Assembly (NCBI GenBank): GCA_944392335.1
Contig: CALXWJ010000062.1
Location: forward strand, 1-64,000
Reading direction: 5' to 3'
Source of the DNA: an uncultured Clostridia bacterium
GTDB taxonomy: Bacteria; Bacillota; Clostridia; UBA1381
Length of the DNA stretch: 64,000 nt
Position 1 is the first letter of the stretch, and every line of letters starts with the position of its first letter. Shown here one piece after another: positions 60,826 through 64,000 of the stretch. A program made the position numbers and the translations under genes. The notes beneath the pieces are model-generated. The model was not told the DNA's origin, made no database searches, and was given only the letters and a program-made list of their open reading frames with translations.

Positions 60826-60970
60826 AAACAGATAGCTTATTGCTTTAATATCCTGATACTGAATATCTTTTGCGTTATACAATTTTGCCGGTATGTTTGA
60901 TGATTGTATGGTCATATTATTATTGTGTATTTGTATTATCACTGAGGATGTCGGAAGAGGTGAGGGGAAA

Positions 60971-61879
60971 ATGTCAAAGGGCAGAAAAACAGTAACGGGG
61001 ATATTTTTATTTCTGGTCATAGCTTCATGCATTGCATGGCTGAGCGTGCGGGACCGTCCGCAAAACAAGGAATATTTAAACAAGGATTTATCGGAGAATA
61101 ATAACGAGAGCGGACTGAATAATATTATAGATCCCAACGGAACGAATGTGCAAACCAGGTTTAAAACTCCTGACGGATATACACGTTTTGAGGAAGATGA
61201 CACAAGCTTTGCGGAATTTGTAAGGAACTATCCTCTTTATCCTGATAAAAGCCTGGTCTATCTATACAATAAGGAGCCAAAAGCCCGTCAGGATGTACAT
61301 GCGGCAGTATTCAAAATGGATCTGTCCGACCGTGATTTACAGCAGTGCGCGGATTCCGTTATGAGAATGTATGCGGAATATTATTGGAACACTCATCAAT
61401 ATGACAAAATAGGATTTCATTTTGTCAGCGGTTTTTTCTGTTCGTATGATAAATGGCGTGAAGGCTGCCGTGTAAGCGTGAACGGAAATGACGTCCAATG
61501 GGTAAAAAGTGAGGATATAGATACGAGCCGGGAAGGTTTTGAACAATATCTTGAAACAGTATTTACTTATGCGGGTACTTTATCGATGGAGGATGAGAGT
61601 GCCCCGGCAGACATTTCAGACATTAAGATAGGAGATGTGTTTCTTTGGGGAGGAAGCCCCGGTCATGTTGTCATGGTGGCTGATGTATGTATTAATGAAC
61701 AAAATAACGATAAAGCATTCTTGCTTGCCCAAGGGTATATGCCTGCCCAGCAGTTTCACATACTGAAAAATCCCGCGCATGAAGATGATCCGTGGTACTA
61801 TCTTTCGGAATTCTCATGGCCTTTTAAAACACCGGAGTATACATTCAAAGAGGGCACCCTCAAACGGCCGATGTATTAA
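60971..61879 (+). CDS. DUF4846 lipoprotein-like/anchored protein
   Basis: This is a 302-residue protein with one N-terminal membrane segment (about 8-28, ending near IASCIAWL). A short Asn/Glu-rich linker and a DUF4846 domain (about 85-300) follow. The domain shows the family's PDGYTRFEEDDTSFAEFVR, HAAVFKMDLSDRDLQQCADS and VFLWGGSPGHVVMVAD blocks (in pieces). The function is unknown. The start at 60971 follows GAGGTGAGGGG. It sits alone between queA and the CCA-like gene and ends at a terminator. Confidence 0.8.
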   Translation: MSKGRKTVTGIFLFLVIASCIAWLSVRDRPQNKEYLNKDLSENNNESGLNNIIDPNGTNVQTRFKTPDGYTRFEEDDTSFAEFVRNYPLYPDKSLVYLYNKEPKARQDVHAAVFKMDLSDRDLQQCADSVMRMYAEYYWNTHQYDKIGFHFVSGFFCSYDKWREGCRVSVNGNDVQWVKSEDIDTSREGFEQYLETVFTYAGTLSMEDESAPADISDIKIGDVFLWGGSPGHVVMVADVCINEQNNDKAFLLAQGYMPAQQFHILKNPAHEDDPWYYLSEFSWPFKTPEYTFKEGTLKRPMY

Positions 61880-61950: not shown

Positions 61951-62103
61951 CTACATATGAGCTGTTTTAAGTGCATTTTAAAGAATAACTGAGAGATAAA
62001 AGCAACGAAAAAATATTTATCAATATATTGCAGCCGCCGCATTGACAATTAATAATGGTTGTTGTATAATAATAATTAAAATCTGGTTTTCGGAGGTGCT
62101 TTA

Positions 62104-63423
62104 ATGTTTGAACAATTGAGCCATACCGCGCTGCAGGTTATAAGCCGGATCAAAAGCCGCGGATATTCGGCATTTATCGCTGGAGCAACCGTTCGTGAAC
62201 TGGTAATGAATGAAACACCTTCTTCGTATATTATAATAACAGACGCGGAGCCTGCAAGGATAAAAGTATTGTTTAAAAGGACTCTTGAGAACCGCGACAG
62301 AAAAAAAGTAATAACGGTGATCGAAAACAAGACGGCTTTTGATATTTATTGCCGTGACAATAAAACAGAGGCTTGTGAATATGCCGAAGAGGCATTAAAG
62401 AGGTTATTGACCAATTTTGATTTTACAATGAATGCCATGCTTTATAATAATGAGGATGGGCTTATTGATTATTTCGGCGCAATGTCGGATATAAAAAACA
62501 AAACTATAAAGATGATGGAATCATCAAAGCTTTTTGCAGCGCAAAAGCCCGTAAGAATGTTAAGAGCGGTAAGATATTGCGCGCAGCTTGGTTTTAAGCT
62601 TGATGAAAAAACAACGAGCGACATTAAAAGATATGCCGTTTTTATAAAAAGAACACCGAGCGAGAAAATAAGGGAGGAGCTTGATAAAATTCTTATGTCG
62701 GATAATCCGGGAGTTTTTATCGACTTAAATAAACTCGGTCTGTTAAAGCATATTATGCCTGAATTGGATGTCTGCTTTGATGTCCCGCAAAAAAACAAAT
62801 ATCATATTTATAATGTGGGAGAACATATAGTCCATGCCGTTATAAACACACCCAATGATCCGGCATTGAGGTGGGCCGCGCTCATGCATGATATAGGAAA
62901 ACCCCTTTGTAAAAGTGAGGATTCTAACGGCATAATACATTTTTACGGACATCACAGAGAAAGCGTTCGGCTTGCTTCAGATATATTGAGACAATTCAAA
63001 ACCGAACCGGAGCTGACAAAAGAGATACTTGTTTTGGTAGAAAATCATGACGTCAGAATAGAAGCAACACCGCAGGGGGTAAAGAAAATGATGATGAGAA
63101 CGGGAGCCGAAACCTTTGCAAAGCTGCTTTTATTGCAGGAGGCGGACAATAAGGCAAAAAACATGAAGTATTTCACCGATAAAATGAACAAAATCAATGA
63201 CGTCAGGAAAATATATCAAAAAGTTGTAGCGGAACGTCATCCATACCGTATTTCCGATCTGGCGGTAAACGGACGTGATTTGAATAAGCTGGGATTCAGA
63301 CCGGGACATGAAATATGGGATACACTCCAGATGCTTTTAAATGAGGTGTTAATAGATCCCGGACTGAATACAAGAGAATATTTAATTACAAGAGCCAAGC
63401 AATACAAACGAAAAAGGGTTTAG
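62104..63423 (+). CDS. CCA-adding-enzyme homologue with degenerate catalytic site and intact HD domain
   Basis: This is a 439-residue protein with the layout of class II tRNA nucleotidyltransferases with an HD domain. The head domain aligns with the family (AFIAGATVRELVMN for the GGxVRDxLL motif; KPVRMLRAVRYCAQLGF). However, the catalytic DxD site, usually in a PxDxDI-type string, reads PSSYIIITDAEP, so both aspartates are gone. The RRDF motif reads TNFDFTMNAM. The HD domain keeps LMHDIGKP, HFYGHHRES and NHDVR. It is therefore unlikely to add CCA; a phosphohydrolase or RNA-binding role is possible. Its stop overlaps that of the convergent flippase gene. Confidence 0.78.
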   Translation: MFEQLSHTALQVISRIKSRGYSAFIAGATVRELVMNETPSSYIIITDAEPARIKVLFKRTLENRDRKKVITVIENKTAFDIYCRDNKTEACEYAEEALKRLLTNFDFTMNAMLYNNEDGLIDYFGAMSDIKNKTIKMMESSKLFAAQKPVRMLRAVRYCAQLGFKLDEKTTSDIKRYAVFIKRTPSEKIREELDKILMSDNPGVFIDLNKLGLLKHIMPELDVCFDVPQKNKYHIYNVGEHIVHAVINTPNDPALRWAALMHDIGKPLCKSEDSNGIIHFYGHHRESVRLASDILRQFKTEPELTKEILVLVENHDVRIEATPQGVKKMMMRTGAETFAKLLLLQEADNKAKNMKYFTDKMNKINDVRKIYQKVVAERHPYRISDLAVNGRDLNKLGFRPGHEIWDTLQMLLNEVLIDPGLNTREYLITRAKQYKRKRV

Positions 63424-64000
63424 AGATGCAGTCCTTTAAGCTCTTTTTTTTGTATGCAGTTGGTAGAAAGCAATACCAGTGCATATGTAACGATGCCTAT
63501 GAAGGCCGTTATTATCAGTGCGACCGAGGAGGATTTAAAGATAATACACATAGGATCATTTAACAGATATACCACGACGCCCATGACTGCGGCCGCAAAT
63601 AACGGTTTTAACAGGGAATTTGACGGGTTCAATCTGATATGTAAATTGTGCTTGATACTGAATGTGTTTAATATCATAATAACCAAAAATTCGGCTGTTG
63701 CGCCTATCGGCGCTCCGAATATATTTATTTCGGGATACGGGATCAAAAAAAAGTTTACGGCAAGTTTTATTGCCATTCCGATAAGCCCATAAAAAAATGG
63801 TTCCATGATTTTCCCGCCGGCATGTAATATTACCGTGAACAGCTGAGATACACATACAAAAACCATGCAAGGAGAAAGTATTTTTAAAAGCTGTGCGGAA
63901 GCCGTGTTGTGAAACAGCAGATCAAGCAGCTGTTCGGAGAAAAGATATGTCATAAGAGCAGAAGGAAGCGCTATTATTAAAGTCAGCTTTAAAGACAGCG
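63420..64000 (-). CDS. Polysaccharide/lipid II flippase family protein (SpoVB/MurJ-like), C-terminal part
   Basis: The frame is open to the window edge, so only the last roughly 190 residues are present and the start lies outside. At least five hydrophobic segments are visible, with the MOP-superfamily patterns VCVSQLFTVILHAGGKIMEPFF and NFFLIPYPEINIFGAPIGATAEFLV (each in part). Such proteins move lipid-linked wall or spore precursors across the membrane. SpoVB-like is the best fit; other MVF/MATE flippases are possible. Confidence 0.78.
   Translation of the reverse strand, partial: LSLKLTLIIALPSALMTYLFSEQLLDLLFHNTASAQLLKILSPCMVFVCVSQLFTVILHAGGKIMEPFFYGLIGMAIKLAVNFFLIPYPEINIFGAPIGATAEFLVIMILNTFSIKHNLHIRLNPSNSLLKPLFAAAVMGVVVYLLNDPMCIIFKSSSVALIITAFIGIVTYALVLLSTNCIQKKELKGLHL

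Follow-up and report, generated by a model that had tools for sequence, protein, structure and literature searches.

A resident class II CCA enzyme of a gut Clostridia family with a decayed polymerase head and a conserved HD site

The locus and the protein it encodes

We analysed a stretch of 64,000 nucleotides from an uncultured Clostridia bacterium (hereafter, the window), in which a CCA-type gene, preceded by a putative promoter and a Shine-Dalgarno-like sequence, encodes a 439-residue protein on the + strand (Table 1). The first-pass annotation had described a full-length, uninterrupted frame, and the reading of the open reading frames agrees, as it runs from ATG to stop without any internal stop. 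Its neighbours are a DUF4846 gene on the upstream side and, downstream, a gene of MurJ/MatE-like type; both flanks recur in the closest relative (L033), and the downstream gene is also found in L034.

The Pfam models for the PolyA_pol head, PolyA_pol_RNAbd, HD and tRNA_NucTran2_2 all scored over their cut-offs on this protein, with PF01743, PF12627 and PF01966 among the matches, and none of the NCBIfam CCA models attained its curated cut-off. The predicted structure has a mean pLDDT of 91.4, with the head still folded, and the whole model (residues 1-439) aligns to class II CCA enzymes, the best match being 1miv (Z 31.1, 381 residues, rmsd 2.7, 22% identity). By descent, therefore, as seen in its full-length homology and fold, the window protein is a class II CCA tRNA nucleotidyltransferase, orthologous to the intact members of its family; we refer to these orthologues as the residents. 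The HD domain sits in place of the class II body, a position that should bring it close to the acceptor of the bound tRNA, as seen in known class II complexes; the tail is a tRNA-binding part in class II enzymes.

Table 1. Features at the CCA-type locus, with positions in the window
Feature	Position	Strand	Basis
DUF4846 gene	60893-61879
Promoter-like TTGACA-17-TATAAT, putative (-35 62042-62047, -10 62065-62070)	62042-62070	+	read directly from sequence
Shine-Dalgarno-like ggagg	62092-62096	+	read by eye
Head-dead resident CCA-type protein, 439 aa	62104-63423	+	frame, Pfam, alignment
Nucleotidyltransferase head, decayed, residues 1-135	62104-62508	+	Pfam, alignment
Former PHDYDIAT catalytic strand, now PSSYIIIT	62218-62241	+	alignment
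Former RRDFTINAM, now NFDFTMNAM	62413-62439	+	alignment
Neck / RNA-binding part, residues 136-228, decayed alongside head; includes motif D (EDALRM, now QKPVRM)	62509-62787	+	Pfam, conservation
HD domain core (class II body), residues 229-320, every ligand-type residue conserved	62788-63063	+	Pfam, alignment
HD dyad H262-D263	62887-62892	+	alignment
Family-specific HD-site residues H284, S287	62953-62964
C-terminal tail, residues 321-438, contains Q345, D348, K352	63064-63417	+	alignment
Family-specific HD-site residue Q345	63136-63138
Family-specific HD-site residue K352	63157-63159
MurJ/MatE-like gene	63420-63998

Motifs of the head and of the HD side

Residue changes were read against 53 full-length intact-head relatives of the same family, in which G28, D32, D41, D43, R104, R105, E147 and D148 are invariant or almost so. 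In the window protein, the catalytic residues D41 and D43 (PHDYDI), aspartate in 53/53 intact relatives, are replaced by serine and isoleucine (PSSYII), the invariant G28 of the glycine pair is alanine, D32 is glutamate, R104-R105 of the RRDF motif read N-F (NFDF), and E147-D148 of motif D read Q-K, with EDxxR now QKPVR. The flexible-loop stretch is also shortened in the alignment. The loss of the P-x-D-x-D-I aspartates and the altered glycine pair and RRDF, as noticed in the first-pass annotation, are thus borne out by the family alignment. That annotation had also allowed for catalytic acids at other positions, and none conserved was found: no replacement acid is common to the four species of the window's genus, whose strands read SSYII, AAYVI, VAYVI and SVYIL, and a substitute such as D47 was rejected, being unconserved within the genus. 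Judged by these motifs, with DxD, RRDF and EDxxR all absent, the window protein is not a functional class II CCA enzyme, and the label "CCA tRNA nucleotidyltransferase", when given through a domain match, is wrong for head-dead genes.

On the HD side, comparison with the 53 intact proteins shows that H234, H241, H262, D263, K266, H279, H283, H284, H315, D316, Q345, D348 and K352 are all kept. The H...HD...D ligands H241, H262-D263 and D348, together with H234, H279, H283, H284 and H315-D316, are invariant in 63/63 residents, and the window protein carries, as far as its residues tell, the ligands that define the HD phosphohydrolase superfamily; the HD motif is intact, as had been claimed, with all HD-side ligands unchanged.

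Retention was scored as the share of cells kept in the head-dead residents at sites invariant in the 53 intact residents, giving 0.58 for the head, 0.55 for the neck, 0.975 for the HD domain and 0.90 for the tail. For the head-dead residents other than the headless G055 protein, the nearest intact relative shares an identity of 0.28-0.60 in the head against 0.62-0.86 in the HD domain, and the head values lie below the mean of intact pairs at equal HD identity. For the pair of head-dead species closest to each other, dN/dS comes to 0.037 over the whole protein, 0.092 in the head and 0.019 in the HD domain, values that are rough because dS of this pair is near saturation. The head value, together with the confident fold of the model, suggests that the head retains structural importance and is not fully free to vary.

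Second CCA-type genes and repeated loss of the head

Apart from the window gene, the window's genome (3.64 Mb, 99.5% complete) has a single PolyA_pol head, located at C21:184607 and belonging to a 416-residue protein with GGCVRD, PNDWDI, RRDFTINAM and EDALR intact, a full-length flexible-loop stretch and no HD motif. The window gene is consequently not the sole CCA-type gene of its genome, a possibility that the first-pass annotation had raised against its own reading. Its term "paralogue" is loose, the window gene being the family's resident orthologue and the second gene the newcomer. The order polA, second CCA gene, coaE is found in 4/4 species of the window's genus. Among eight single-copy relatives checked, polA is directly followed by coaE in four (G006, G057, G063 and G011, the nearest ones among them), and in the other four no polA lies beside coaE. 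Because polA and coaE adjoin in relatives without the second gene, this gene was most simply inserted between them in the genus ancestor. Contamination of the metagenome-assembled genome was ruled out as its source, given its 213-kb contig and the polA-cca-coaE arrangement common to the four species. CCA is encoded in all 26 distinct tRNA genes scanned (from the 30 best-scoring tRNA loci of the genome), so CCA addition may matter here for repair only.

The family sample comprised 70 genomes, most of them draft metagenome bins, and 66 had a match. Head-dead residents occur in 10 genomes, those of the four species of the window's genus plus G019, G030, G038, G045, G055 and G069; the 56 intact-head residents comprise 53 full-length and three partial proteins. 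A second CCA-type gene is present in 10/10 head-dead genomes vs 1/56 intact-head genomes (G037), an association with a Fisher p of 5e-11 when relatedness is ignored, and in all ten head-dead genomes the catalytic motifs of the other PolyA_pol gene are intact. In a resident tree built from neck, HD domain and tail, the dead state maps to six changes, at least five of them on well supported branches; we give 5 to 6 independent losses because the placement of G055 and G030, where long branches meet, is unsure. The loss defines a clade, the window's genus, a point that the first-pass annotation had proposed to check, and it recurs in other genera. The second copy accompanies head loss in nearly all independent pairs (sign test p 0.06, with five pairs only).

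The second copies lie outside the resident clade, at several places among CCA enzymes of other Clostridia, and on this sequence evidence are of several origins; those of the window's genus group together, and that of G019 adjoins that of G037. In G019, G055, G069 and G045 the second copy has an intact HD motif of its own, and the resident HD is kept there nonetheless. H284, S287, Q345 and K352 are invariant in all family residents and mostly different in the HD-CCA enzymes of neighbouring families and in the second copies, the pattern being mostly missing even from those second copies that have the HD motif. A profile of the C-terminal half scores 478-538 bits in this family vs at most 339 bits in other Clostridia among the genomes listed. 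All head-dead proteins have open frames.

The G055 resident, at L072:992-1894 (-) and at the same locus in L054:6001-6903 (+), is a protein of 301 residues from which the head is wholly absent. It has its own Shine-Dalgarno sequence and ATG just ahead of the neck, its HD domain and tail are intact, Pfam recognizes the RNA-binding neck and HD only, and it is predicted to be well folded (pLDDT 89.8); no head remnant was found in the 2 kb upstream of the gene.

In G037 (L030, L055), the resident head is intact and the second CCA enzyme is a close relative of the one in G019; this genome looks like the stage before head decay. Separately, extra CCA-like proteins from other Clostridia families, namely G453 (L113), G330 (L111) and G181 (L118), have head and HD motifs both degraded (HNVGI, HGAGK); considered as further cases across the class, they were ruled out and left uncounted because the HD site is degraded along with the head.

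Interpretation and comparison with known systems

The best reading of these patterns is that lineages acquired a second tail-adding enzyme, after which the resident lost its tail-adding site. As for the window gene, we think it rather probable that it is the family's resident HD-type CCA enzyme, which lost its polymerase and was retained as a tRNA-guided, metal-dependent HD phosphohydrolase. Judging from sequence comparison, the genus ancestor gained an HD-less CCA enzyme between polA and coaE, and the head and neck of the resident later decayed, with loss of RRDF, of motif D and of both aspartates that bind metal; in between, the newcomer would have taken over CCA addition or repair and so made this part of the resident catalytically dispensable. 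The HD site and tail, whose conservation is seen in the alignment, would have been maintained by selection. The most likely substrate would be a 2',3'-cyclic phosphate, 2'-phosphate or 3'-phosphate on damaged tRNA 3' ends, removal of which would let the second enzyme rebuild CCA. By analogy with the Mycobacterium tuberculosis CCA enzyme, the window protein should act as an HD phosphohydrolase led to tRNA by its tail.

Because it was kept intact at every head loss, the HD site of these residents probably has its own job. The division of labour is plain in the window's genus, as the second enzyme there is without HD, but it fails for the four genomes with HD-bearing second copies, where the persistence of the resident HD implies an importance peculiar to the resident's own site; the residues H284, S287, Q345 and K352 are candidates for this feature. 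The first-pass annotation had proposed a new role, and its picture of a dead head combined with an apparently live HD domain and with parts that bind tRNA is supported, although the role need not be new: the HD ligands match those of intact, presumably bifunctional relatives, so the simpler reading is that an older second activity was retained.

Other explanations start from the same observations. The HD domain might act on a free or cyclic nucleotide instead of the tRNA 3' end, with the tRNA-binding scaffold merely inherited, which would explain why the HD of the second copies has not replaced that of the residents, and to which the strong decay of the neck and the four resident-specific residues also lend weight; nevertheless, with the tail kept at 90% of invariant cells and the same HD site present in the presumably bifunctional intact relatives, we regard it as unlikely. 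It is conceivable, if doubtful, that a family-specific HD reaction other than CCA maintenance, marked by H284/S287/Q345/K352, explains the survival of the gene, in which case a family-specific HD job, and not CCA addition, would keep it through replacement by HD-bearing enzymes and head loss. A subunit role, in which the protein binds tRNA or tunes the second CCA enzyme as its partner without any catalysis, would agree with the folded head of the model (mean pLDDT 91) and with the partial constraint on that head (dN/dS 0.092), and has a precedent in the beta subunit of GlyRS (PMC8464048); yet such a pseudoenzyme needs no invariant HD ligand-type residues, and 10/10 dead proteins have them, the S-K dyad of GlyRS beta is unlike that of the window protein, and G055 does without the head, all of which make it quite improbable. 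In the literature searched, with subscription papers mostly outside the search, nothing relevant on a pseudoenzyme or inactive CCA paralogue was found, nor any account of the pattern described here.

The decay of head and neck could also mark a gene becoming a pseudogene after its replacement, a course rendered very improbable by the open frames, by the conservation of HD domain and tail over deep divergence, by the low dN/dS (0.037, with dS near-saturated) and by the independent recurrence of the same outcome; for the window gene itself we ruled it out, given its open frame, the low dN/dS and the 97.5% of invariant HD cells kept in the head-dead proteins. Least credible of all is that the window protein and the second enzyme are CC- and A-adding partners: such pairs are known, but in the window protein neither catalytic carboxylate survives and the motif D pair is missing too, and DxD, RRDF and EDxxR are all present in the second enzyme, whose flexible-loop stretch is of full length.

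As to the retained HD site in general, the activities of CCA-enzyme HD domains are known from work in vitro, and their cellular role is poorly understood. Evolution apparently ran the separation-of-function experiment several times, removing the polymerase and keeping the HD site, in one lineage down to a headless protein of 301 residues. This repeated retention suggests that the HD activity is itself under selection, and the head-dead residents constitute ready-made single-activity proteins for finding the HD substrate.

Escherichia coli Cca and M. tuberculosis Rv3907c share the head, neck, HD body and tail order and the HD motif of the window protein; each is a single bifunctional enzyme, whereas the window protein has a dead polymerase half and the intact head of its genome resides in a second gene. 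The Bacillus stearothermophilus CCA enzyme (1miv) has the same body and tail fold, and class II enzymes such as this one retain polymerase function but have no HD motif, being a mirror image of the window protein and of the same type as the second gene of its genome. GlyRS beta carries an HD-like domain beside CCA-enzyme-like tRNA-binding parts, has no nucleotidyltransferase, and is a tRNA-binding synthetase subunit with a dead HD domain, its dyad mutated to S-K (PMC8464048), in contrast to the dyad kept here. Pairs of CC-adding and A-adding enzymes, known in bacteria and eukaryotes (PMC7014341), likewise involve two CCA-type genes per genome, but both partners are active polymerases, and here one is without catalytic carboxylates. 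The HD activities of E. coli Cca are credited to Yakunin 2004 in PMC10673834. In the M. tuberculosis enzyme, changing DLD to ALA abolished CCA addition and left the metal-dependent phosphohydrolase activity, which the HD-motif mutation H298A in turn abolished (PMC10673834); the DLD-to-ALA mutant corresponds, as a laboratory construct, to the natural window protein.
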